A stretch of 21,311 bases of DNA. Origin: a virus. The translations under genes were made by a program, and so were the position numbers. Below, piece by piece: positions 2,176 to 20,342 of the stretch. The stretch covers positions 1-21,311 of the IMG/VR virus record IMGVR_UViG_3300021963_000763, one strand, 5' to 3'. A model generated the notes under the pieces. That model did not search any database, was not told where the DNA came from, and was given only the letters and a program-made list of their open reading frames with translations. The stretch's first letter is position 1. Each line of letters opens with the position of its first letter.

Positions 2176-3954
<1,779 letters not shown>

Positions 3955-3958
<4 letters not shown>

Positions 3959-5016
3959 AAATAGCAATCTATACGATTTCAAAGAATGAGGAAAAACACG
4001 TTGAGCGTTGGTATGAGTCCACGAAAGAGGCTGATTACCACATCATCGCAGATACAGGGTCAACAGACCGAACAGTTGAGATTGCTAGATCTCTTGGTAT
4101 CACGGTTGTCCCGATCCATATTTTCCCATTTAGGTTCGATGACGCAAGAAACGCATCGCTTGCCGTAGTTCCAAAAGATGTTGACTACTGCATAGCACTT
4201 GATATGGATGAAGTGCTTACACCTGATTGGCGCAAGCCACTAGAGGAAGCGCTAGCCAGAGGTATTGACAGGCCAACATATAGACGCATTGAAGCCTTTA
4301 ATGATGATGGCTCAGTAGCTTCAGAGTTTAATGGATTCAAAGTACACAGGCGAGATGGTATTCGCTGGCACTATCCGATTCACGAGGTACCTCACTGGTA
4401 TGAAGAACGTGAAGAAGTTAAAGACTTTATCTACGGCTTTGAAACTCACCACTTGCAGGATAGAACAAAGTCTCGTGGACAATACCTGCCAATGCTTGAG
4501 ATGGCAGTACGTGAGAACCCAGATGCTAGAAACCTGTACTACTTAGGTAGAGAACAGTCTTACCATCAGCAACACGAACAGTCTGCAGAGTCTCTTAAGA
4601 AATACCTAGAGTTAAGTATCTTTCCAGAAGAACGTTCAGCTGCTTGTCGCATCTTATCTAAGTGCGAACCAGACAATGCTGAAGAGTGGTTAATCAAAGG
4701 CACCGAAGAGTTTGCAAGTAGGGAGTCAATCCTAGCCCTTGCAAACCATTACTACGTTAATTCAATGTGGGATGAATGCTTGTTGGTTTCTGAGAAAGCA
4801 CTGAAGTTTAATGAGAAGCCTTCACAGTTCCTTGCAGAGTCTTGGGCGTGGGGGCCAATGGCCTATGACTTAGCAGCGATTAGTTGCTGGCAACTAGGTC
4901 GTTGGAAGATGGCATACAAGTACGGTAAAGAAGCAGTAAAGATAAGTCCAAACGATGAGCGCTTGGTTAATAACCTGGCTTTCTATAAGGAGAAAATGAA
5001 TGGCAACGTTAAATGA
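3955..5016 (+). CDS. Glycosyltransferase family 2-like protein with C-terminal TPR-like helices
   Basis: 353 residues; ATG 3955 overlaps the previous stop. The N-terminal part is a GT-A fold: KIAIYTISKNEEKHVERWYES (2-22), the nucleotide-sugar loop ADTGSTDRT (32-40), and metal-binding DMDEVL (83-88). A tryptophan/histidine-rich segment around 130-145 (WHYPIHEVPHWY) is typical of TPR-containing glycosyltransferases. The C-terminal third has helix pairs such as YDLAAISCWQLGRWKMAYKY followed by AVKISPNDERLVNNLA, a TPR-like repeat. It would transfer a sugar from a nucleotide donor in the cytoplasm. The neighbour is the GT25-like gene, so the pair may build a short glycan on one acceptor. The next gene starts inside its last codons. 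Confidence 0.8.
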
Positions 5017-5896
5017 TCTGATAGGTGAGGTTAGATCTTCACTCGCAGGTTTTACCCTGCGTCAAGATCGCATCTCGTATCTGACGAGTGCTTTGTCCAC
5101 AACAGATACAGCAATTCCTATTGGCTCATCTAATAACCTAGCTAAAGGCATCATTGAGATTGGTGATGAACTTATCTGGATTGATAACTTTACTAAAGAG
5201 AACAACACAATGAATGCCGCTCCAGGCTTTGGACGTGGCTACCAAGGTACTTCACCATCGCCACACGCAGTTAACTCTCAGGTTATTCTGACACCTACAT
5301 ATCCCCGCACCAACATCAAGCAAGCCATCAACGACACTATCAACTCAGTGTACCCAAAGTTGTGGGCTGTTTACTCATACACATTTACCTTCAATGCTTC
5401 ACAGGTTACATACGCTTTGCCAGATGATGTACAGAATGTTCTGTATATGTCTTGGCAGACAACAGGTTCTAGCCGTGAGTGGCTACCACTGAAGAAGTGG
5501 CGTGCAGATCTTATGGCTAACGTTGCAACATTTAACACACAAAAGACTATTAACATCTACGAGAACGTACAGCCTGGTAGAACTATTCAGGTTTGGTATG
5601 CAGCAACACCACAGACTATGACATCTGGAACAGATGACTTCAGCGCAGTAACTGGTTTGCCAGAGTCTTGCCGTGACGTAGTTGTATATGGCGCAGCTTA
5701 TCGTCTGCTCTCATTCGTAGATCCTGGTCGTATCAACTTGACCTCTGCAGAATCTGACCTTGCCGATAGCAAGGTGCCAGGTGCTGCTGGTTCTACAAAC
5801 TCCAGATACATCTATGCGCTCTATCAACAGCGCTTGCAGGATGAGTCACTCAAGCTATCTGACAAGTTCCCAATTCGCGTTCACTTCACCCGTTAA
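5000..5896 (+). CDS. Adaptor or tail-attachment-like structural protein
   Basis: 298 residues; ATG 5000 with AAGGAGAAA upstream, overlapping the glycosyltransferase by 17 bases. Visible features are an N-terminal helix LIGEVRSSLAGF; a beta-rich part with GIIEIGDELIWIDNF and GFGRGYQGTSPSPH; then PRTNIKQAINDTINSVYPKLW, a helix motif typical of phage head-tail adaptor proteins; and a C-terminal part with VVVYGAAYRLLSFVDPGRIN and a long helix. The middle helix plus the terminal AAYRLL helix suggest a neck or portal-adaptor protein. I recall similar proteins in environmental actinophages only as hypothetical. It opens the fibre/tail gene group. Confidence 0.6.
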   Translation: MATLNDLIGEVRSSLAGFTLRQDRISYLTSALSTTDTAIPIGSSNNLAKGIIEIGDELIWIDNFTKENNTMNAAPGFGRGYQGTSPSPHAVNSQVILTPTYPRTNIKQAINDTINSVYPKLWAVYSYTFTFNASQVTYALPDDVQNVLYMSWQTTGSSREWLPLKKWRADLMANVATFNTQKTINIYENVQPGRTIQVWYAATPQTMTSGTDDFSAVTGLPESCRDVVVYGAAYRLLSFVDPGRINLTSAESDLADSKVPGAAGSTNSRYIYALYQQRLQDESLKLSDKFPIRVHFTR

Positions 5897-12404: not shown

Positions 12405-12428
12405 CCGATAGCGCGAGGCAACACAGGA

Positions 12429-12462
12429 GGTCGGTCCCTACGGGGACCGGCCTTCTTTTTTT
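12429..12462 (+). terminator. Intrinsic terminator of the late operon (UACG loop)
   Basis: GGTCGGTCCC (12429-12438) pairs with GGGACCGGCC (12443-12452), nine Watson-Crick pairs plus one G-U. The loop TACG closed by C-G is of the very stable UNCG class. TTCTTTTTTT follows. No T-run exists on the opposite strand, so it acts mainly on plus-strand transcription from the lysis genes. Confidence 0.9.
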
Positions 12463-12470
12463 ATGCCGTT

Positions 12471-12770
12471 TTATTCTTTGTCTGCAGGGCAGGGAACTGT
12501 CACGATATTGCCACAGTTAACACAGGTAGCATCAAGGAAGTACCAGACCAGCTCGTAGTCATCAAAGGAGCACATAACGCTGAAGACCTGAGACCCACAC
12601 GGACAGACGTGGATCGGGCCAAAGGCCCTTAAATCGCTGCCAAAAGGCTCAGGAAGGGTATCGTGGCTGCGTCGTAATGATTGCAGGGTGAGTAGACGGA
12701 GCAGGCGGTAGGCTGTACCGTTGCTACTGCGACCCTTGAGGGGTCGCCGGTCCTGTTTAATTCGCCTCAC
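12471..12770 (-). CDS. Small four-cysteine zinc-motif protein, minus strand
   Basis: 99 residues if the GTG complementary to 12768-12770 is used. The last 50 residues are well organised: FGPIHVCPCGSQVF (C56, C58), VMCSFDDYELVWYFLDATC (C83) and VNCGN (C86). The paired cysteines and the DYELVWYFLD strand look like a zinc-ribbon, of a kind I recall in actinophages. The first 40 residues are Arg-rich and less protein-like, so the real start could be nearer; no ATG, GTG or TTG occurs in frame inside. It stands alone, convergent with the late operon and divergent from the hydrolase gene. No ribosome site is visible upstream of the GTG. Function unknown. Confidence 0.6.
   Translation of the reverse strand: MRRIKQDRRPLKGRSSNGTAYRLLRLLTLQSLRRSHDTLPEPFGSDLRAFGPIHVCPCGSQVFSVMCSFDDYELVWYFLDATCVNCGNIVTVPCPADKE
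12729..12747. other. Perfect 7-bp stem hairpin near the 5' end of the minus-strand gene
   Basis: GCGACCC (12729-12735) and GGGTCGC (12741-12747) form a perfect inverted repeat with a five-base loop. There is no T-run on either side, so it is not a terminator. On the minus strand it would fold about 25 bases after the proposed GTG and could modulate translation or message stability. Confidence 0.4.
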
Positions 12771-12777
12771 GGCTCAT

Positions 12778-12783
12778 ATTGTA
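12778..12783 (-). promoter_or_regulatory. Candidate -10 element for the minus-strand gene
   Basis: The minus strand reads TACAAT, one base from TATAAT, ending seven bases before the proposed GTG at 12770. That places +1 at or next to the start codon, a leaderless arrangement. The expected -35 position falls inside the palindrome and does not match TTGACA. No ribosome site is present. Confidence 0.45.
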
Positions 12784-12796
12784 GTCCGACAGGTAG

Positions 12797-12814
12797 GTGT
12801 CGCAGGTGCGACAC
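12797..12814. promoter_or_regulatory. Perfect 18-bp palindrome, candidate operator/activator site
   Basis: GTGTCGCA (12797-12804), GG, TGCGACAC (12807-12814): both 8-base arms match without mismatch. The centre (12805.5) is about 35 bases from the start codons of both divergent genes (12770 minus, 12840 plus). This looks like a dimer-binding site controlling both promoters. No second copy was found by eye in the window. A regulator candidate is the ribbon-helix-helix protein or WhiB further downstream. Confidence 0.6.
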
Positions 12815-12827
12815 ACCGTTGTAATGA

Positions 12828-12833
12828 TAGGAT
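12828..12833 (+). promoter_or_regulatory. Candidate -10 element for the early operon
   Basis: TAGGAT ends six bases before ATG 12840, so +1 would coincide with the start codon. The same bases contain AGGA, seven bases from the ATG, which could instead be a short ribosome site. The matching -35 position lies in the palindrome and is not TTGACA-like. Experimentally undecided. Confidence 0.4.
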
Positions 12834-12839
12834 GCAGCT

Positions 12840-13397
12840 ATGACAACTATCGCAGGTGTGCAAGGCATTGATTACGCTGTGCTAGTTGCAGACTCACAGA
12901 TCACCGAGGACAACTTAGTAACGCTAGCCGTTACTACACCCAAGATTGTAGAGGTAGGTAAGTTCCTCGTCGGTATCTCAGGTGACACCAGACCAGGTGA
13001 CATCCTTTCGTATAACTGGAAGCCACCTCTATATCGGGGCGAAGATCCTGTTCAGTTTATGGGAAAGAAAGTAATCCCAAGTATCAACGCAGTTTTTAAC
13101 GACAACAACTACGACTACAACAAGGTGGACAAAGATGGCGGTTTTGATTATCTCATTGCTTTTAACGGTAACATCTTTAGGGTTGCTTGTGATCTCTCTT
13201 TTTTCCAAAGCGATGTCGGAATTTACGGCATCGGTAGTGGTGGCCAGTTTGCTCTCGGCTACCTTTCTTCAATTGTCAAACCTGATATGGAGTTAGCCTA
13301 CGCAAAGAGACACGCCCGTAAAGCAGTTGATATAGCTTCGGTACTTGACGCCAATACTGGTAAGCCTTTACAGTTGGTAGTACAAGAACGGTTCTAG
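12840..13397 (+). CDS. HslV/proteasome beta-like N-terminal-nucleophile hydrolase
   Basis: 185 residues. The protein starts MTTIAGVQGIDYAVLVADSQ, very like HslV after Met removal (TTIVSV...GDGQ). Thr2 would be the exposed nucleophile without a propeptide; Asp18, Lys35 (the Lys33 counterpart with a one-residue shift), the GISGD turn (45-49) and GIGSGG (130-135, HslV/proteasome Ser125 region) complete the active site. The final helix KRHARKAVDIASVLD and the strand QLVVQE also fit. HslV is the peptidase of the HslVU protease; proteasome beta subunits share the fold. No HslU or other AAA unfoldase lies in the window, so it may use a host ATPase or act alone. First gene of the early operon. Family assignment by motif; activity inferred. 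Confidence 0.85.
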   Translation: MTTIAGVQGIDYAVLVADSQITEDNLVTLAVTTPKIVEVGKFLVGISGDTRPGDILSYNWKPPLYRGEDPVQFMGKKVIPSINAVFNDNNYDYNKVDKDGGFDYLIAFNGNIFRVACDLSFFQSDVGIYGIGSGGQFALGYLSSIVKPDMELAYAKRHARKAVDIASVLDANTGKPLQLVVQERF

Positions 13398-13405
13398 GAG
13401 GAGCT

Positions 13406-13537
13406 ATGAAACAAATAGAAATTGGAAACGGTTGGATTGCTTATGGCAAGCTCAACGGATTTGGTATTGGTTTTAGTATTACTAGATACAACATAGACTT
13501 GAATCTTGGGTTTTGGTTTATCGGGTTGGAGTTCTAA
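13406..13537 (+). CDS. Small beta-rich hypothetical protein (43 aa)
   Basis: ATG 13406 has TAGGAGGAGCT upstream, among the best ribosome sites of the window. The product alternates aromatic and hydrophobic strands: KQIEIGNGWIAYGKL, FGIGFSITRYNIDLNLG, FWFIGLEF. That is a compact beta-sheet with many Gly turns. I recall similar short proteins in early regions of diverse phages, with no known function. The stop overlaps the next start (TAATG). The region is AT-rich (20 G/C in the 60 bases from 13441). Confidence 0.6.
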   Translation: MKQIEIGNGWIAYGKLNGFGIGFSITRYNIDLNLGFWFIGLEF

Positions 13538-13656
13538 TGGAAATTAAATCAATACCAATGACAGATGAATACGCTGCTCATTACTTTTATCAGATGGGTT
13601 GGATGGCTTGTCGTTTAGCATACAAGTTGCACGAAGAGGCTAACGATGACAACTAA
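13537..13656 (+). CDS. Small hypothetical protein (39 aa)
   Basis: ATG 13537 overlaps the previous stop; the 39-residue product is MEIKSIPMTDEYAAHYFYQM followed by GWMACRLAYKLHEEANDDN. It is probably one long helix with aromatic faces. The next gene begins 11 bases before its stop. Only gene order, overlaps and the absence of any other frame support it. No family recognised. Confidence 0.5.
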   Translation: MEIKSIPMTDEYAAHYFYQMGWMACRLAYKLHEEANDDN

Positions 13657-13942
13657 AAAGAAAGCTGCACCAAAGAAAAAGAAGGCAGCACCTAAAGAAG
13701 ATTACCTAACTATCAAGACGCAACAGTATGGTTTCCCATCATTAATGGGCAATGCCTACAATAATCTTATTAACAGTATGCTCAATGACAAAATGCCTGA
13801 GTCATTGGAAGGTCAGGTTCAGTACTGGAAAGAAAAGTACGAGCGATCTGAAAAGCAATGCGATAAGTATGCAGCACAAGTTGGTGTGCTTGAAAGAATT
13901 ATTGATGGTGCTTTGAGAAGGAGTTGTAATGGCAACGACTGA
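13646..13942 (+). CDS. Hypothetical protein with Lys-rich N-tail and coiled coil
   Basis: 98 residues. The first 18 residues are a lysine/alanine/proline tail (TTKKKAAPKKKKAAPK), resembling histone-like tails. A middle part (QQYGFPSLMGNAYNNLINSM) is followed by a helix with regular charged spacing (EGQVQYWKEKYERSEKQCDK, then VLERIIDGALRR). It could bind nucleic acid through the tail and dimerise through the helix. It overlaps the nuclease gene by 14 bases. Function unknown; position suggests a replication or recombination accessory. Confidence 0.6.
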   Translation: MTTKKKAAPKKKKAAPKEDYLTIKTQQYGFPSLMGNAYNNLINSMLNDKMPESLEGQVQYWKEKYERSEKQCDKYAAQVGVLERIIDGALRRSCNGND

Positions 13943-14876
13943 CCCAAAGGAACTACTACTTACTGCACTACGTGCAGGTGATGCTAAGCGTTCACGATCT
14001 ACTCAGGTACAGATTGGTCCATCTGAGGTAGGCGGTTGCCGACGCAAGGTGTGGTACCGACTTAACGATCAACCTGAAACTAATGACCACGAACTCAAGC
14101 TCGCTGCAATTATGGGTACTGCTATCCACGCTGAGATTGAGAAGGCGCTGGCAGATAACAAAGATGTTTTAATTGAAACAGAAGTTGAATACAACGGTAT
14201 GAAAGCACACGTTGACTGCTTTGTACCTGGTACTGGTGATGTGATTGACTGGAAGACAAGCAAGGTCCGGAACCTTTCTTACTTTCCATCAACGCAGCAA
14301 CGGTGGCAGGTACAGCTATACGGCTACCTCCTAGCTAAGAACGGCTATGCGGTCAACCGAGTGTCACTGGTTGCAATTGCCAGGGACGGGGACGAACGCG
14401 ATGTCAAGGTTCACACCGAAGACTACGATGAGTCCATTGCACTAGAGGCACTCGGTTGGCTAGCGGCTGTTAAGGAAGCAAAGGAAGCGCCAGCACCTGA
14501 GAAGGATGCAAGTTACTGTCAGCATTACTGCAAGTTCTATGACGCAAGTGGGCAGATGGGATGCGTTGGTCTAAAAAAAGAACTTACCGCAGTCAGTGAT
14601 GTAATCATTGATGATGCAGATGTTGACAAGAATGCACTGCTGTACTTACAGTTAGCAGCACAGATTAAAGATCTTGAGAAACAGCAAGACTCACTCAAGG
14701 CCAGCTTTGAAGGACTGCTCGGTGTTACACCTAGCGGTATCGAAGTAAGTTGGACAACTGTTAAGGGACGTGAATCCGTTGACAGTAGCGAGGTAGAAAA
14801 ACTATTAGGGTTTGTCCCTAAGAAGGTAGGAGCTGAAAGCCAGCGACTATCTATAAAGCAAAGTGGAGGTAAGTAA
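13929..14876 (+). CDS. Cas4/RecB-like PD-(D/E)XK exonuclease
   Basis: 315 residues; ATG 13929 with AGAAGGAG upstream. Order of motifs: GGCRRKVWYR (C37), GTAIHAEIE (about 63-71, the conserved His), VDCFVP (D96), VIDWKTSK (D107, K109) as the metal-binding core, QQRWQVQLYGYLLA (123-136) as the Q-Y motif, then C197, C201 and C212. Four cysteines at these places are the Fe-S layout of Cas4/AddB-like nucleases. The C-terminal part (230-315) is extra and helical. The likely role is end processing or recombination in phage replication; it could also counter host DNA defence. No cas1/cas2 lies nearby. Confidence 0.8.
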   Translation: MATTDPKELLLTALRAGDAKRSRSTQVQIGPSEVGGCRRKVWYRLNDQPETNDHELKLAAIMGTAIHAEIEKALADNKDVLIETEVEYNGMKAHVDCFVPGTGDVIDWKTSKVRNLSYFPSTQQRWQVQLYGYLLAKNGYAVNRVSLVAIARDGDERDVKVHTEDYDESIALEALGWLAAVKEAKEAPAPEKDASYCQHYCKFYDASGQMGCVGLKKELTAVSDVIIDDADVDKNALLYLQLAAQIKDLEKQQDSLKASFEGLLGVTPSGIEVSWTTVKGRESVDSSEVEKLLGFVPKKVGAESQRLSIKQSGGK

Positions 14877-14877
14877 T

Positions 14878-15267
14878 ATGGCTTCAGAAACAACTAAGTA
14901 CCAGATCAATTTCAAGACACACAAAGACGGTACCTTGGTAAACATCTATGCAGATAGCATTAAAGAATTAGAAACACAGATCACTGACATCTCAATGATC
15001 TCTGCTTTGATTAAGTCAACAGAGGCAGAGCTTTATACAGGTCCACGCAACGTTGCGTCAGCACCAACAGTTGAGTCAGTTGCTCAGGCATTTGGTGCAA
15101 CACCAGTACAGGCAGCACCAGCTGCACCAGCAGGCGGTGGCAATACCTGCCGTCACGGTGTGATGGCACTGCGTGAAGGAACATCAGCACGAGGACCTTG
15201 GAAGGGCTATATGTGTGCTGCACCAAAGGGTGCAACAGACAAGTGCGACACCATCTGGGTTCGATAA
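14878..15267 (+). CDS. Putative ssDNA-binding-like protein with C-terminal zinc motif
   Basis: 129 residues from ATG 14878, behind GGAGGTAAGTA; an in-frame upstream TTG/ATG start is less likely. Residues 1-55 are a beta/alpha domain (YQINFKTHKDGTLVNIYADS). Then a Pro/Ala-rich linker (about 60-88), and a C-terminal unit CRHG...MCAAPKGATDKC (C91, H93, C113, C123) ending IWVR. The same ending occurs, as I recall, in actinophage proteins beside Cas4-like nucleases. A role in DNA replication or binding is likely but not proven. The next gene starts with its stop (TAAATG). Confidence 0.55.
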   Translation: MASETTKYQINFKTHKDGTLVNIYADSIKELETQITDISMISALIKSTEAELYTGPRNVASAPTVESVAQAFGATPVQAAPAAPAGGGNTCRHGVMALREGTSARGPWKGYMCAAPKGATDKCDTIWVR

Positions 15268-15531
15268 ATGCTACGGCGACCAGAACAATTTGAGTCGCCA
15301 AGTTGTGCAACAGTAGGTGGAGATTTCTGGTTTCCTGAGAAGGATGCCAGCAAGTATGAGAATCAGTTTGCTAAAACAATCTGTGCTTCTTGCCTCCACA
15401 AAAACGAATGCGCTGAGTGGGGTATCCAAAAAGAAAACTTTGGTATCTGGGGTGGGTTGTCAGATGTGGACCGCCGACTAATCAGACGCAAGCGTGGGAT
15501 CAGAGTTAATCAGGAGGAAGACGTTGCTTAA
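15268..15531 (+). CDS. WhiB-like Fe-S transcriptional regulator
   Basis: 87 residues from ATG 15268. The four WhiB cysteines are C13, C39, C42 and C48, in the C-x(n)-CxxC-x5-C layout, followed by GIWGG (59-63) and a basic C-terminal part RRLIRRKRGIRV. WhiB proteins hold a [4Fe-4S] cluster, bind the housekeeping sigma factor and change promoter choice; they exist only in actinobacteria and their phages. In phage TM4 a WhiB alters host WhiB2 function and superinfection. Here it lies between a replication protein and the helicase gene and is likely early. It supports an actinobacterial host. Confidence 0.9.
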   Translation: MLRRPEQFESPSCATVGGDFWFPEKDASKYENQFAKTICASCLHKNECAEWGIQKENFGIWGGLSDVDRRLIRRKRGIRVNQEEDVA

Positions 15532-16372
15532 TCTATCCCGTGCGTGGGGCGGTGTGCTTACCAAAGCAACACCACTGCCTGATGTATGGGATGGCTTAGC
15601 TGCCAAGCAGATTAAGTTCAGACGTGGGCAAGTATGTATGGTTGCAGCAGCACCTAATGCTGGTAAGTCAATGTTCGCATTGATCTATGCAATCAAAGCA
15701 AAGGTGCCTACCTTGTTCTTCTCTGCCGACACTGATACAACTACCGTGATGATGCGAGCAGCATCGCATACATCCGGTCACTCACAGATTACTGTTGAGG
15801 CAAACTTGGCTAGCGATAGCCACCACTACGACCATCACTTCCAGAAGATTGACCACATCAAGTGGGTCTTTGATTCGTCACCAACGATAGATGATCTTGA
15901 GTTAGAGATCAGAGCTTACGTAGAACTCTACGGTGAAGCACCTGAACTCATCATCATAGATAACCTAATGAACGTGGCAGCAGAGACAGACAATGAATGG
16001 TCAGGACTACGTGCGATTATGATGGAACTGCACGATATGGCACGTAAGACTGAGGCTTGTGTAATGGTGTTGCACCACGTCTCTGAGCAATCAGAGTACG
16101 GGTCAACTACTAAGCCACCAGCACGTAGGTCTATCCACGGTAAGGTCAGTCAGTTACCTGCATTGATTCTTACACTGGGCTACGACCCGAATCAAAACAC
16201 TTTGGCAGTAGCAGCTGTGAAGAACCGCTTTGGTCCACACACAGCAGATGCTTCCGATTATGCACAACTGCTAGTAAACTATGCAGCCTGTCAGATCGGT
16301 GACCAGGATGAGTTTGGTTGGATGTTAAGAAGAGATGCAATGGCTGGGTATCAAGGAGGATACAACGTATGA
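15524..16372 (+). CDS. DnaB/RecA-fold ATPase, putative helicase
   Basis: 282 residues if TTG 15524 is the start: AGGAGGAAG lies directly upstream, while GTG 15494 has none. The stop of whiB overlaps the start by 8 bases. Walker A is AAAPNAGKS (about 41-49), Walker B is LIIIDN (about 145-150), and the conserved VMVLHHVSE segment (about 180-190) fits a RecA/DnaB-like motor. The N-terminal region of DnaB is missing, so the protein is a short helicase core, perhaps working with the separate primase genes downstream. Otherwise it could be a RecA-like recombinase. Confidence 0.75.
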   Translation: MLNLSRAWGGVLTKATPLPDVWDGLAAKQIKFRRGQVCMVAAAPNAGKSMFALIYAIKAKVPTLFFSADTDTTTVMMRAASHTSGHSQITVEANLASDSHHYDHHFQKIDHIKWVFDSSPTIDDLELEIRAYVELYGEAPELIIIDNLMNVAAETDNEWSGLRAIMMELHDMARKTEACVMVLHHVSEQSEYGSTTKPPARRSIHGKVSQLPALILTLGYDPNQNTLAVAAVKNRFGPHTADASDYAQLLVNYAACQIGDQDEFGWMLRRDAMAGYQGGYNV

Positions 16373-16566
16373 CAAGACTAAAAGATCCTGAGAACGTTTG
16401 GTCTTTGCGTTACAGAGATGATATGCGTGAGACATTACAGATACGTCTGAGCAAAGAGCAGAAGCAAACGCTGAACTCTGAAGCTAAGGACAGGGGTATC
16501 TCTACCAATGAATTGATTAGACAGTACGCCGACTACTTAATGAACTACGAGGAAACCAATGGCTAA
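16369..16566 (+). CDS. Ribbon-helix-helix DNA-binding protein
   Basis: 65 residues from ATG 16369, behind AAGGAGGATACAAC and overlapping the helicase stop by 4 bases. Residues 20-27 (RETLQIRL) are the ribbon strand; SKEQKQTLNSEAKDRG and STNELIRQYADYLMN are the two helices of a CopG/Arc-like fold. Such proteins dimerise and bind short inverted repeats, often as repressors. It is a candidate for the palindrome at 12797-12814. A toxin-antitoxin antitoxin is another possibility, but no toxin neighbour is visible. Confidence 0.75.
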   Translation: MTRLKDPENVWSLRYRDDMRETLQIRLSKEQKQTLNSEAKDRGISTNELIRQYADYLMNYEETNG

Positions 16567-16720
16567 CACAGAGATGCAGTATGTAAAGAACCGCATTGTT
16601 AAATTAGAGAAGGACTTTGCTGCCTTTGCTTCGCTCTTAATTCAAGCAGGTATCGTTGAAGTTAAAGAAGAAGATGGCGTTCAGGTTTATGCAGTCAACA
16701 AGGTCAAGCTAGATGGCTAA
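16559..16720 (+). CDS. Small hypothetical protein (53 aa)
   Basis: ATG 16559 overlaps the previous gene by 8 bases; the product runs MANTEMQYVKNRIVKLEKDF then AAFASLLIQAGIVEVKEEDG and ends VYAVNKVKLDG. One long helix is followed by a strand pair. The next gene starts 8 bases before its stop. No family recognised. Supported by overlaps on both sides and by the absence of other open frames here. Confidence 0.55.
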   Translation: MANTEMQYVKNRIVKLEKDFAAFASLLIQAGIVEVKEEDGVQVYAVNKVKLDG

Positions 16721-17063
16721 TAAGAACGGACGCAAGGGTTCTCAGTTTGAGACAGACGTTATGAAATGGCTTCGCGGTGCGGGAGTTATGGCAGAACGTT
16801 TGACTAAGGCTGGGGCAAAGGATGAGGGAGATATGGTTGTTATCATATCTGGAGAAACCTACATCCTTGAACTAAAGAACAGGCAGACGCTATCGCTGCC
16901 GGAGTTCTGGAGAGAAGCGCAAGTTGAGGCGCTTAACTACGCAAAGGCTAGGGGTCTCGGGGAAGTGCCTCTTTCATACGTTGTAGTTAAGCGTCGCAAC
17001 GCTTCAATAGATCAGGCTTGGGTAATCCAAGACTTAACTCAATGGCTAAAGGAGAAGAAGTAA
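16713..17063 (+). CDS. Holliday-junction-resolvase-like PD-(D/E)XK nuclease
   Basis: 116 residues from ATG 16713. The core is visible: FETDVMKWLRGAGVMAERL with E13, DEGDMVV with D40, and YILELKNR with E53 and K55, then LPEFWREAQVEA. This is the archaeal Hjc/VRR-like resolvase arrangement found in many phages. It would cut branched DNA intermediates before packaging. The position between replication genes agrees. Specificity for Holliday junctions is inferred from the family. Confidence 0.75.
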   Translation: MANKNGRKGSQFETDVMKWLRGAGVMAERLTKAGAKDEGDMVVIISGETYILELKNRQTLSLPEFWREAQVEALNYAKARGLGEVPLSYVVVKRRNASIDQAWVIQDLTQWLKEKK

Positions 17064-17218
17064 TGCCAGTACCAGGTGGAGAAATTACAACAACAGAACT
17101 ATGGCAAGCGCCAGTAGAGGTTGAATCAGCTGAGGCTGTTGCTGCTATTGAAGATGATGAGCAGTTAGTTGAAGTGGTAGAGGAGTTAGTGCAAGATGAT
17201 CTGCCAGAACTGTCTTAA
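17063..17218 (+). CDS. Highly acidic small protein (51 aa)
   Basis: ATG overlaps the resolvase stop (TAATG at 17061-17065). The product has 11 Glu and 4 Asp and no Lys, Arg or His. The acidic part is helical, IEDDEQLVEVVEELVQDD. Such a charge pattern is typical of DNA-mimic or protein-interaction peptides. The following zinc-motif gene begins in its last 23 bases. No family recognised; real coding status is supported by the overlaps. Confidence 0.5.
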   Translation: MPVPGGEITTTELWQAPVEVESAEAVAAIEDDEQLVEVVEELVQDDLPELS

Positions 17219-17363
17219 GGGTGGGGCTGAGAACAGAGCTAGCCACTTCAAGCGTGCCTCACACTGGCACTCTAAGTGCGACTTCAAGGGGTGCGTATGT
17301 CAACACAAGACTGGTCCAGGACTAGTAAAGGTAACAGAGTCCAAGCTAACACCATCCCAATAG
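17196..17363 (+). CDS. Small zinc-binding protein (55 aa)
   Basis: ATG 17196, with AGGAG ten bases upstream; too short for many gene finders. The protein reads MICQNCLKGG, a linker with two or three His (SHFKRASHWH), then KCDFKGCVCQHKTGPG. Two CxxC-like pairs and several His form one or two zinc sites. I recall this type in many actinophages (CxxC ... CKGCTCQHK), without known function. It overlaps the acidic gene by 23 bases and the primase zinc gene by 67 bases, all in different frames. Confidence 0.7.
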   Translation: MICQNCLKGGAENRASHFKRASHWHSKCDFKGCVCQHKTGPGLVKVTESKLTPSQ

Positions 17364-17665
17364 AACCAATCGTAAGTTTCTTCGGCGGTGAAACAAGAGG
17401 TGGCACCGGCGAGATAAGAGTCAAGTGCTTGATGCACAATGACTCACATAGATCTGCCTCAATGAACGTAGATACCAACCTTTACTACTGTCAAACCTGT
17501 GGTAAGGGTGGCAATGCAGTCAACATAGTCTGCATACTAGAGAACTTGGAGTTTATAGATGGCCTCAAACGTGCAGTCGAAATTGCTGCTGGAAGCGGCG
17601 CAGCGATACGCACAGGCAATAAGTCCAGAGGTGCTAGACGTGCTAGCCGCACGTGGGATATCTGA
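17297..17665 (+). CDS. Primase zinc-binding (CHC2) domain protein
   Basis: 122 residues from ATG 17297; an upstream GTG at 17276 is less likely. The CHC2-type zinc finger is C44-x2-H47 (VKCLMHNDS) and C65-x2-C68 (YYCQTCGKGGNAVNIV), normally the N-terminal domain of DnaG-like primases, which recognises the template initiation site. The C-terminal 35 residues lie over the start of the TOPRIM gene in another frame. The primase therefore seems to be made in two pieces that should act together with the ATPase at 15524. Confidence 0.8.
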   Translation: MSTQDWSRTSKGNRVQANTIPIEPIVSFFGGETRGGTGEIRVKCLMHNDSHRSASMNVDTNLYYCQTCGKGGNAVNIVCILENLEFIDGLKRAVEIAAGSGAAIRTGNKSRGARRASRTWDI

Positions 17666-18209
17666 ATTAGTTGCAGCTAAGTTTCAACTAGGCACAGTTT
17701 ATGAGCCACACAATGGACACGAGATGCACGAGGGTTGGCTGTCTATTCCATACATCACTGCCAGTGGTAGTTGCGTAGGCTTTAAGTTCAGACGCATAGA
17801 TGATGGTAAGCCTAAGTACGGCTCACCTACAGGGCAGAAGGCACACCTGTATAACGTATGCGACATCACCATTGACTCACCACACATCGTTGTGTGCGAG
17901 GGTGAACTAGATGCAGTAATTACTAGCGGTGTGCTTGGTATCCCAGCAGTGGGTGTGCCAGGTGTTGCTGCTTGGAAGCCACACTTTCCAAAACTATTTA
18001 ATGGCTACGAAACTATCTACGTTGTTGGTGACAACGACATCAAAGAAGATGGGTCTAATCCTGGAGCTGAGTTTGCCAAGCGTGTTGCTAACGAGGTAAT
18101 GAACTCAGTTATTGTTACACTACCACCAGGTATGGACATCAATGACTACTACCTAGCACACGGGGCAGATGCCACACGTGCTTTGCTAGTAGGTGAGCAG
18201 ATTGGATAA
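17559..18209 (+). CDS. TOPRIM-domain primase subunit
   Basis: 216 residues; ATG 17559 has TTGGAGTTTATAG upstream and lies 107 bases inside the zinc-domain gene, in the +1 frame. The TOPRIM signature is VVCEGELDAV (E114) and IYVVGDNDIKEDG (about 153-165; D158, D160), the metal-binding catalytic core of primases and gp4-like enzymes. An N-terminal helical part (1-45) and a beta part follow the usual primase order. It lacks a helicase part. It would make RNA primers together with the upstream zinc-domain protein. Confidence 0.8.
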   Translation: MASNVQSKLLLEAAQRYAQAISPEVLDVLAARGISELVAAKFQLGTVYEPHNGHEMHEGWLSIPYITASGSCVGFKFRRIDDGKPKYGSPTGQKAHLYNVCDITIDSPHIVVCEGELDAVITSGVLGIPAVGVPGVAAWKPHFPKLFNGYETIYVVGDNDIKEDGSNPGAEFAKRVANEVMNSVIVTLPPGMDINDYYLAHGADATRALLVGEQIG

Positions 18210-18215
18210 GAGTGA

Positions 18216-18611
18216 ATGGCTACAGATGGTACAGATTTTGCAGCATATGGGCTTCCAGATCCTAGAGATCAATACGGAAACCGAGACACTCTTGATTCGA
18301 CCTACACAGACAAGATAGATGCTGCCTTTATCGCAGATGTCTGGCGCATAATGGACCAAGCGGGTAATCTCTTGGTGCGTAAGCATCACGACTACGGCCC
18401 AAAGAACATTGCTCACTCACCAGGTGGACCACTTAATGGTTTGCGTGTACGTATGTGGGACAAGATAGCTCGTATCAATAACCTATTAGACTCAGGCGTT
18501 AAGCCAAGTAACGAGTCACTGCGTGATTCTTTCTTAGACTTACTGAACTACTCAGCTATTGCAATGATGGTACTCGATGGCGTATGGCCTGAAGTGCAGG
18601 ACAATGACTGA
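18216..18611 (+). CDS. DUF1599-like nucleotide-modification-associated protein
   Basis: 131 residues; ATG 18216, six bases after the primase stop. The run LLVRKHHDYGPKNIA (about 52-66), PLNGLRVRMWDKIARINNLL (72-91) and ESLRDSFLDLLNYSAIAM (100-117) matches my memory of DUF1599, a domain linked to modified nucleotide metabolism and often found in phages with hypermodified DNA. The helices and the Asp-Leu-Leu-Asn-Tyr pattern resemble MazG-like pyrophosphohydrolase folds. No other base-modification gene is seen here. Its stop region overlaps the sigma-like gene by 8 bases. Confidence 0.7.
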   Translation: MATDGTDFAAYGLPDPRDQYGNRDTLDSTYTDKIDAAFIADVWRIMDQAGNLLVRKHHDYGPKNIAHSPGGPLNGLRVRMWDKIARINNLLDSGVKPSNESLRDSFLDLLNYSAIAMMVLDGVWPEVQDND

Positions 18612-19236
18612 GTTACACCCAGTTGTGTATGACCTAGCACCTAGCGTAGCTGGGACTATCTATCGCAGGTACAAGAACTACGTTGAACGTGATGACATCA
18701 AGCAGGAGTGTATGGCTTGGGCTATTACTCGTACTGCTTACATCACTGAGCAGATGAGTGAAGAGAACGAAGAGCGACGCAAGCACAACGAGCAACGCAT
18801 CGCATACCAAATGCGACGTGTAGCAGAACGCTATGCTCGTAAAGAGAAGGCATCTAAGTCTGGCTATCAGACAACAGATGAAGCCTACTATGAGTCAGCT
18901 GGTATCGGACAGTTGCTACCTTTTGTTATTGCATCAGTCATTGATGGCACAGTATTAGAACAGGTACAACAGATGGTGCAGGACGGACAACCCAAGGGTA
19001 AGTCCAGTCCGGCAGAAGGTGGCAACCTACTTGCTACTCTCATTGACATCAAGCGTGCATACCTATCACTAGATCCAGATGAGCAGACCTTGCTGCGCCT
19101 ACGTCACCACGAGAGCGCAACCCTACAACAGATCGCACAGGTGGTTGAGTGTGCAGTATCTACTGCAGATCGCAGATGCAACAACGCTATGCGTAAACTA
19201 ATTGAACAGCTCGGAGGCCCCAGTCCGTGGCAATGA
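18604..19236 (+). CDS. Sigma-70-like factor
   Basis: 210 residues from ATG 18604 (the first in-frame codons upstream belong to the previous gene). The N-terminal YVERDDIKQECMAWAI (about 26-41) resembles sigma region 2. The end, LSLDPDEQTLLRLRHHESA then IAQVVECAVSTADRRCNNAM with RKLIEQL (about 155-203), is a region-4-like helix-turn-helix. The middle, including TDEAYYESAG, is variable. It would direct host RNA polymerase to phage promoters, possibly late ones. The similarity is motif-level, and a plain HTH regulator remains possible. Confidence 0.65.
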   Translation: MTELHPVVYDLAPSVAGTIYRRYKNYVERDDIKQECMAWAITRTAYITEQMSEENEERRKHNEQRIAYQMRRVAERYARKEKASKSGYQTTDEAYYESAGIGQLLPFVIASVIDGTVLEQVQQMVQDGQPKGKSSPAEGGNLLATLIDIKRAYLSLDPDEQTLLRLRHHESATLQQIAQVVECAVSTADRRCNNAMRKLIEQLGGPSPWQ

Positions 19237-19616
19237 AAGAGCAAGACCTATTTGATTTCCTCAAGTCTAGTTTGTATCCAGACTTAGAGCGTAGCCCTGG
19301 CATCTATGATGCCTTCGACTGCTTCAGTATGGCAGCTGGTCACTACATAGAGTTGAAGTGTCGTTACACTCACTACGATACGTTGCTGATTGAAGAGATG
19401 AAGTACCGCAAGCTGATAACGCAGGCAGCAGAGCGAGATCTCATCCCGTTCTACATCAACTCGACACCGAAAGGTGTCTTTTCTTTTGACCTAATGGATG
19501 TACCTGAACCTGACTGGGTAAGCCACTGGATGCCAGCGACTACCGAGTTCTCACGTTCACAAAAGATTAGTAAGTTAGTAGGTTACCTAGCAATCGAAGA
19601 GGCAGTACAACTATGA
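19227..19616 (+). CDS. PD-(D/E)XK-like nuclease/phage hypothetical
   Basis: 129 residues from GTG 19227, which has GGAGG nine bases upstream; ATG 19233 is the alternative. The visible core is IYDAFDCFSMAAGHYIELKC with D31, E42 and K44 (D...ExK), then YTHYDTLLIEEMKYRKLI. The layout is like small phage PD-(D/E)XK proteins such as endonuclease-like or restriction-like proteins. Other conserved residues are not clear, so this is a weaker assignment than for the resolvase at 16713. It overlaps its two neighbours. Confidence 0.6.
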   Translation: MAMKEQDLFDFLKSSLYPDLERSPGIYDAFDCFSMAAGHYIELKCRYTHYDTLLIEEMKYRKLITQAAERDLIPFYINSTPKGVFSFDLMDVPEPDWVSHWMPATTEFSRSQKISKLVGYLAIEEAVQL

Positions 19617-19786
19617 TGTATGACTATCGTTGCACAGAGTGCAACAGTGAGATAACTATTGAGCGTAGCATCCACGATGAACCGCGTTCGCCTTCTTGCT
19701 TTGACTGTCACATAGAGATGGTCCGTAAGTTTGATGCACCTAGTATCCAGTTCAAAGGCGGAGGGTTCTATGTCAACGGCGGATAA
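19613..19786 (+). CDS. FmdB-like zinc ribbon protein
   Basis: 57 residues; ATG 19613 overlaps the previous stop (ATGA). The start MMYDYRCTECN and the pairs C7-x2-C10 and C29-x2-C32 (SCFDCHIEM) with RKFDAPSIQFKGGGFY match the FmdB family CxxC-CxxC ribbon. Such proteins are putative transcription or translation-related regulators of unknown mechanism. It overlaps the methyltransferase by 17 bases. Confidence 0.7.
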   Translation: MMYDYRCTECNSEITIERSIHDEPRSPSCFDCHIEMVRKFDAPSIQFKGGGFYVNGG

Positions 19787-20342
19787 GTTTCCTGATTGGT
19801 TTAGTATGACAGCTAAGCCTAACTTCGAGAAGTATCTAATTCCGTTAGCGGGCGTGGATAATTTAGAGTTCCTTCAACTTGGTGCATACACAGGGGACGC
19901 TAGCGTGTGGATGCTAGACAACATTAAACCTTTGATGCTAACAGATGTAGATACTTGGGAAGGTAGCGACGAGGAAGCACATAAGAAGATGAACTTCTCT
20001 GAGGTTGAGTCTGTCTATGATGAGAAAGTCAAGGGTCGTACAAACAAATATAAGTGCACAACTTTTGATTACCTATTCAAGTATTCAATACCAGGTTTTA
20101 TTGAGTACGACTTCATCTACGTAGATGCAGACCACACCGCAGCTGGTGCATTACTAGATGGTGAGTTATCCTGGCCACTGCTTAAGTCTGGTGGCATCAT
20201 AGCCTTTGATGATTACCAATGGGGCGCAGAACTACCTGCATCTAAGTCACCCAAACTAGGCATTGATCTATTCTTAGAGCGTCACGCTGGTGAGTATGAG
20301 TTACTAGAGCAGGGTCTACAAGTTTGGTTGCGTAAACTTTAA
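19770..20342 (+). CDS. Class I SAM-dependent methyltransferase
   Basis: 190 residues from ATG 19770, behind GGCGGAGGGTTCT; an upstream start at 19731 is not needed. Motif I is FLQLGAYTGDAS (34-45), an acidic strand end LTDVDTW follows (57-63), then DFIYVDADHTAAG (114-126) and the late SGGIIAFDDYQW (140-151). This is the Methyltransf_24-like class I fold. The substrate is not clear: a sugar, nucleotide or small molecule. It ends the early plus-strand operon, followed by a terminator. It might act with the virion glycosylation genes. Confidence 0.75.
   Translation: MSTADKFPDWFSMTAKPNFEKYLIPLAGVDNLEFLQLGAYTGDASVWMLDNIKPLMLTDVDTWEGSDEEAHKKMNFSEVESVYDEKVKGRTNKYKCTTFDYLFKYSIPGFIEYDFIYVDADHTAAGALLDGELSWPLLKSGGIIAFDDYQWGAELPASKSPKLGIDLFLERHAGEYELLEQGLQVWLRKL

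Follow-up and report, generated by a model that had tools for sequence, protein, structure and literature searches.

A proteasome-like protein, predicted to be an N-terminal threonine hydrolase, is encoded by an exchangeable gene of freshwater actinophages

The stretch of virus DNA analysed here (IMG/VR record IMGVR_UViG_3300021963_000763, 21,311 nucleotides; hereafter the window) contains a real gene for a protein of 185 amino acids, apparently an active, virus-borne single-subunit relative of the proteasome. Comparisons of sequence and predicted structure place the protein in the proteasome superfamily and, tentatively, nearest to the betaproteobacterial proteasome homolog (BPH), in a phage-rich branch and not with HslV proper. 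Across related phages, the gene behaves as an accessory cassette that has been gained, swapped and lost. We favour, with a probability of about 0.55, the reading that the product is a phage-borne group I threonine peptidase close to BPH, which would act as an ATP-independent ring cutting particular host or phage proteins. A preliminary description of the sequence had proposed an HslV- or proteasome-like Ntn hydrolase with an early role in infection; the observation was confirmed, and its interpretation is partly supported.

Relationship to the proteasome superfamily

The features of the gene are the following, with the type of evidence in brackets.

12840..13397, + strand: proteasome-like (group I, BPH-proximal) N-terminal threonine hydrolase, 185 aa (profiles, fold, Foldseek)
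12843..12845, + strand: codon of Thr2, the mature Thr1, predicted nucleophile once Met is removed (alignment, codon analysis)
12891..12893, + strand: codon of Asp18, corresponding to proteasome Asp17 (alignment, invariance)
12942..12944, + strand: codon of Lys35, corresponding to proteasome Lys33 and BPH Lys37 (alignment, invariance)
12981..12983, + strand: codon of Gly48, corresponding to oxyanion-hole Gly47 (alignment, invariance)
13101..13142, + strand: residues 88-101, DNNYDYNKVDKDGG, a pore-loop segment lying between helix H2 and the strand that follows (model, alignment)
13236..13238, + strand: codon of Ser133 in GSGG, corresponding to proteasome Ser129 (alignment; AGY and TCT codons both used)
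13347..13358, + strand: Asp170-x-x-Thr173, corresponding to proteasome Asp166-x-x-Ser169 (alignment, invariance)

The Pfam Proteasome profile (PF00227) matched the protein at 5.9e-12, with 46.1 bits against a gathering cut-off of 22.4, and PHROG 1040, 'peptidase HslV family', matched over residues 1-182 at 3.1e-27, a full-length match to a family whose annotation is also given to proteins of Aeromonas, Tunturiibacter and other phages. When the family profile was compared with PDB chains, BPH (5ovu) came first at 1.2e-13 and HslV next at 6e-10. Scores with the HslV models were far below their cut-offs (TIGR03692, 23.6 against 157.75 bits; NF003964, 24.8 against 137), and the archaeal-beta model TIGR03634 gave 31.8 bits against a cut-off of 224. 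The label 'HslV' of the preliminary description therefore holds for the superfamily but not for HslV proper, an identity that was rejected on these scores and on the absence of HslU from the phages searched and from 60 Actinomycetia; in PHROG 1040 it is a name only and exaggerates the closeness to HslV. HslV (E. coli ClpQ) and the window protein have in common the N-terminal TTI, Asp17, Lys33, GSGG and the lack of an alpha subunit, whereas the window protein is without HslU and has Asp170-x-x-Thr173 and a longer pore loop.

An AlphaFold (AF2) monomer model, built from 35 window and IMG/VR sequences, had a pLDDT of 91.4 and predicts an alpha-beta-beta-alpha sandwich with the strand and helix order of a proteasome-like subunit and helices H1 to H4 (H1, residues 50-58; H2, residues 70-88). 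A Foldseek search of the PDB gave BPH chains as best matches (5ovs, 1.3e-11), followed by HslV and proteasome beta. VIA-align returned a tie: proteasome beta and BPH each aligned over 150-174 residues with a Z of about 20. Both the profile matches and the predicted fold bear out the Ntn hydrolase assignment; of the two checks that the preliminary description had set, the sandwich fold and a Thr2 near Lys35 and Asp18, the model bears out the first. In a maximum-likelihood tree, in which several branches are long and the deep order is tentative, HslV and proteasome beta grouped together, then came BPH and then a phage-rich branch containing the window protein. This branch has 41 rows (support 98/83), chromosomal actinobacterial copies included, and the two BPH sequences form a separate branch (100/98) with the window protein outside.

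Among proteins of known structure, BPH (5ovs, 5ovt, 5ovu) is the best match, at 24-25% identity. It lacks a propeptide, assembles as a double heptamer, has a long acidic pore loop and reacts with epoxomicin at Thr1 (PMC5777263). Both proteins have the Thr1/Asp17/Lys/Gly/Ser set and an extended acidic pore loop, lack a propeptide and have no known ATPase; they differ in that BPH forms its own tree branch and has the more acidic loop. In the window protein, 4 of 17 pore-loop residues are acidic and 2 are basic, and the segment is extended and net acidic across the whole family, more mildly so than in BPH. The 20S proteasome beta subunit is likewise similar in its active site (Thr1/Asp17/Lys33/Ser129/Asp166/Ser169 type) and alpha-beta-beta-alpha fold, but the window protein has no propeptide and the phages searched encode no second proteasome-like subunit, each gene-bearing phage having a single proteasome-like gene.

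Fuchs, Alva and Lupas (2021) described group I proteasome homologs, kin of HslV and BPH, among them PPH, of about 140 aa and without H2, in phages and their hosts, and AAH in actinobacteria, alphaproteobacteria and phages (PMC8665760). The window protein resembles both as a compact, phage-borne group I relative of BPH and HslV without propeptide or AAA+ partner. Its 185 residues and its H2 do not fit the definition of PPH. With AAH (reference WP_035979212), the comparison is one of published description; actinophages carry a related protein here, whereas no actinobacteria-specific phage with AAH was found in 2021 (PMC8665760). Since the kind had been described with no function reported, it is known yet uncharacterised: we found no functional characterisation of such phage proteins, as the preliminary description had suspected, but the protein is not the first of its kind, as the PHROGs family, relatives on more than 590 IMG/VR contigs and the naming of PPH and AAH (PMC8665760) attest.

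Connectase, a further member of the superfamily, is a monomeric ligase (PMC8665760), so the fold alone does not prove proteolysis. Moreover, purified BPH, the nearest solved relative, is inert on peptides and casein (PMC5777263), which speaks against a peptidase and could instead point to a specialised Ntn transpeptidase, ligase or amidase of connectase type. We consider such a function improbable, since the AF2 model has H1 to H4 with no connectase-type helical insertion, and the window clade keeps the proteasome-type Asp170/Thr173 pair.

Amino terminus, active site and selection

The ATG at 12840 is preceded by an in-frame TAG (12828-12830) and then by only three non-start codons, leaving no room for a propeptide, as the preliminary description had stated; the protein thus begins Met-Thr-Thr-Ile. 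Met-Thr is a standard substrate of methionine aminopeptidase, and the methionine would be removed co-translationally, exposing Thr1.

The active site was found to be complete. Thr2, Asp18, Lys35 and Ser133 of GSGG stand where the preliminary description had placed them (Thr1, Asp17, Lys34 and Ser132 in mature numbering), and Gly48 and the Asp170/Thr173 pair can be added, so that the catalytic set Thr/Ser1, Asp17, Lys33 and Gly47 is present by alignment. The active-site alignment used sequences that we take to be those of E. coli HslV and the T. acidophilum beta subunit; in it, E. coli HslV has no counterpart of Asp170-x-x-Thr173.

The catalytic residues, including the Asp170/Thr173 pair, are invariant across 79 close IMG/VR relatives and are retained with few substitutions across 27 clusters formed at 70% identity, the invariance of residues 1-4 being partly circular because these residues served to locate the starts in the conservation scripts. 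Only one of 311 family profile hits failed this start filter, and it reads MTTV. Some branches (the L125 type and the portal-site H2 type) have Asn or another residue in place of Asp170. Among 107 distinct genes, the median dN/dS was about 0.09, and the codon of Ser133 was AGY in 82 and TCT in 25, a codon switch of two steps that leaves Ser unchanged. These substitution patterns indicate strong purifying, not positive, selection on the protease of the window clade.

Genomic context and promoter region

The surroundings of the gene in the window are as follows.

12425..12463, + strand: intrinsic terminator closing the late/lysis operon upstream (14-pair stem and T run)
12471..12770, - strand: divergent 99-aa gene with GTG start and two Cys pairs (CPCG..CVNCG), zinc-ribbon-like (sequence)
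12778..12783, - strand: predicted leftward promoter, TACAAT, 7 nt ahead of the divergent gene's GTG (sequence reading)
12797..12814, no strand: inverted repeat GTGTCGCAGGTGCGACAC (GTGTCGC..GCGACAC), possible operator (single site in the window)
12828..12833, + strand: predicted leaderless promoter, its -10-like box TAGGAT (TANNNT) ending 6 nt ahead of the ATG (clade alignment)
13406..13656, + strand: two overlapping small genes of 43 aa (13406-13537) and 39 aa (13537-13656) (sequence)
13646..20342, + strand: rest of the rightward operon (Cas4/RecB-type exonuclease, L5 gp49-like protein, WhiB, DnaB-like helicase)

A lysis module and the strong terminator close the late operon. The divergent 99-aa gene, conserved in 179 of 185 relatives and without a Pfam or PHROG family match, is separated from the protease gene by a compact divergent promoter region of 69 bp (12771-12839). 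Among 111 distinct sequences of this region, 110 have a TANNNT box that ends 5-8 nt upstream of the protease start, and 93 of the 111 contain GTGTC..GACAC. The box emerged from the clade alignment, a simple sigma-70 scan having found no promoter before the protease gene. Leaderless transcripts are common in actinobacteria, and the nearness of the boxes to the start codons suggests that the protease transcript is leaderless and made with a host sigma factor; the inverted repeat is possibly the operator of this putative promoter pair.

Downstream, the 43-aa and 39-aa genes join the protease gene to the replication operon, which also contains primase pieces, a sigma factor and a methyltransferase. 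The rightward replication operon thus begins with the protease gene. In this respect the preliminary description, according to which the gene opens the early operon, is correct; the operon is presumed to be early, a timing that the conserved promoter does not by itself establish.

Elsewhere in the window, a collagen-like Gly-X-Thr/Pro repeat protein of 286 aa (2510-3370), probably a tail fibre, is followed by two glycosyltransferases (3380-3958 and 3955-5016). Among the structural genes, 1115-1869 encodes a series of tiny proteins (51-88 aa) rich in Lys and has a strong skew of A over T (0.32).

Position, exchange and loss of the gene in related phages

The window clade consists of syntenic freshwater actinophages of about 40 kb, whose isolated relatives infect 'Ca. 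Planktophila'. A search for the host by DNA similarity gave no phage match; WhiB, L5 gp49, DnaB kin and synteny with Planktophila phages indicate that the host is probably an actinobacterium. Genomes of the window clade (G001) and of the ct2KA10 clade (G016) are largely syntenic, and the latter clade includes LanE43-AprE7 and LanE43-AprF5 (E7 and F5; OX376640 and OX376641), freshwater actinophages isolated on Planktophila (PMC10202952). These two phages are similar to the window in gene order, in having WhiB and a sigma factor, and in a homolog 29-30% identical to the window protease, but in both the protease gene lies directly after the portal gene and does not head the replication operon.

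The position and presence of the gene differ between the clades. It is fixed in the window clade, in all 59 loci with enough upstream sequence. In the ct2KA10 clade, with terminase and portal assigned by PHROGs, it directly follows the portal gene in 57-58 of 69 testable loci and is missing from 11 or 12, about one sixth, one of the 12 loci scored as absent (L433) in fact carrying it. In the L247 clade it lies upstream of the portal and major capsid protein (MCP) genes. Because syntenic relatives have the gene among the head genes after the portal, the early role proposed in the preliminary description is no rule for the family.

Adjacency to portal and MCP genes had suggested a morphogenesis protease, acting on the prohead or on ejection proteins. 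This reading is largely refuted and is, in our estimation, very improbable. In the window clade, although synteny otherwise holds, the gene has moved to the replication operon, and its type is not linked to the neighbouring giant virion-module protein. One phage (G420, 39.9 kb) lacks the gene but is close to a gene-bearing phage (G430) in its MCP (95% identity), scaffold (86%) and portal (88%), and a gene-less phage with a 95% identical capsid protein argues against prohead maturation. No protease family that might substitute for it was found in six clade-specific ORFs of G420. A prohead protease was accordingly rejected on the near-identical heads without the gene and on the relocation.

At the same post-portal site, at least three major protease types from different branches of the tree occur, and copies are down to 28-30% identical beside portals that are 85-92% identical. 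Such a history of gain, exchange and loss makes it likely that the substrate lies outside the virion and is most likely a host factor. A sharper version of our favoured reading is that the protease serves counter-defence or host takeover by removing a particular host protein, the type swaps tracking host variation. The exchange of so divergent types at one site that is empty in about one sixth of loci is consistent with this, as is the host-type promoter with which the window-clade protease heads the replication operon. We hold this version to be possible, if on the unlikely side: no target and no linked defence gene were found, the window clade shows purifying and not positive selection, and many phage genes are commonly exchanged as cassettes. 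The protease copies of E7 and F5, which share a host, are 92% identical, though this is one pair only.

Giant proteins of 1500-1900 aa are encoded between the portal and scaffold genes (L335, 10214-15346; L333, 4943-9706; and the matching region of G420, L485). In BLAST comparisons they often have no match between phages with similar portals, and they form a hypervariable island; such an island likewise distinguishes E7 from F5 (PMC10202952). A role of the protease as dedicated processor of the neighbouring giant protein was rejected, protease types and giant proteins being unlinked.

Unfoldase partners and chromosomal relatives

The preliminary description had noted that the gene has no unfoldase neighbour, which is correct. 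Among the roles that it proposed, each of which may apply, were degradation of host proteins, antagonism of the host proteasome or Pup system, and partnership with a host ATPase. No gene of the HslU/ClpX type (PF07724) was found in 27 distinct phage records (23 + 5) of up to 308 kb, and no AAA domain (PF00004) in 15 window-clade contigs of 31-42 kb, some of them incomplete. Among 60 Actinomycetia genomes, examined as plausible hosts, none gave an HslU match, against 5 of 14 control genomes. The lack of HslU and of phage unfoldases weakens the proposed partnership.

Docking on a general host AAA+ unfoldase (ClpX, ClpC or Mpa/ARC), so that the phage protein redirects or replaces the host protease chamber, would still agree with the way HslV and the proteasome work, with the retention of such unfoldases by the hosts and with the lack of one in the phages searched. 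We regard it as doubtful, because this branch has no known partner other than HslU, which is missing from the Actinomycetia searched, and the pore loop, longer than that of HslV, suggests self-gating. Fuchs et al. moreover reported no AAA+ protein co-occurring with any of the new homologs, nor any function for them (PMC8665760), and pull-downs with BPH recovered no ATPase (PMC5777263).

A narrow-profile search of genome contigs gave no chromosomal relative, and a PHROG search over 395 Actinomycetia did find such relatives. About a tenth of these genomes (L318-L332) have an extra chromosomal copy besides the usual proteasome; those read start with MTCIVGVQ.. or MTVIVGL... The extra copies group with those of Aeromonas and Pseudoalteromonas phages (100/99), beside the branch of the window, and may be AAH. 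Of 13 small actinobacterial genomes (1.0-1.9 Mb), mostly chosen for having no phrog_1040 match, 10 have no proteasome-family gene.

Aeromonas phage 2L372X (end of L086; 114931-115500 and on) has two adjacent 'peptidase HslV family' genes, one with GCG instead of GSG, and a PhoH-like gene about 2 kb upstream of the pair. In Pseudoalteromonas phage J2-1 (L087), PhoH directly adjoins the homolog (4001-5167), which has 388 aa and a C-terminal extension of about 200 residues.

Proposed mode of action

Under the favoured reading of an ATP-independent threonine peptidase, copies of the processed protein would assemble into a closed ring or double ring like that of BPH, without propeptide, alpha subunit or dedicated AAA+ unfoldase. 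The substrates, unfolded proteins or particular proteins of host or phage, would be cut in the chamber by the Thr1/Asp17/Lys33 mechanism, without ATP. In the window clade, the gene, standing first in the replication operon, would be expressed from a leaderless promoter of its own, of host type, and the substrate would probably be a host factor relevant to infection and not a virion protein. A bolder form of this proposal, which we put forward only as an unlikely idea, is a self-sufficient viral proteasome: a ring independent of ATP and partners that destroys a host protein, for example one of defence, and is encoded by a swappable, host-matched cassette in abundant freshwater phages.

Significance

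Catalogues of proteasome-like phage proteins go back at least to 2021. New here are the syntenic freshwater actinophage clade, the swapping of types at the portal site and the gene-less near-twin phage. This clade makes the function testable, as it offers an active site under selection, matched phages with and without the gene and matched phages with differing types, and isolated carriers exist on Arthrobacter, such as phages Hum25 and Pitbull (A. globiformis B-2979), and on 'Ca. Planktophila'. If the protein proves to be an active protease that needs no ATP, viruses would have put the proteasome fold to a new use, and the workings of a proteasome-like chamber that has no unfoldase might be explained.
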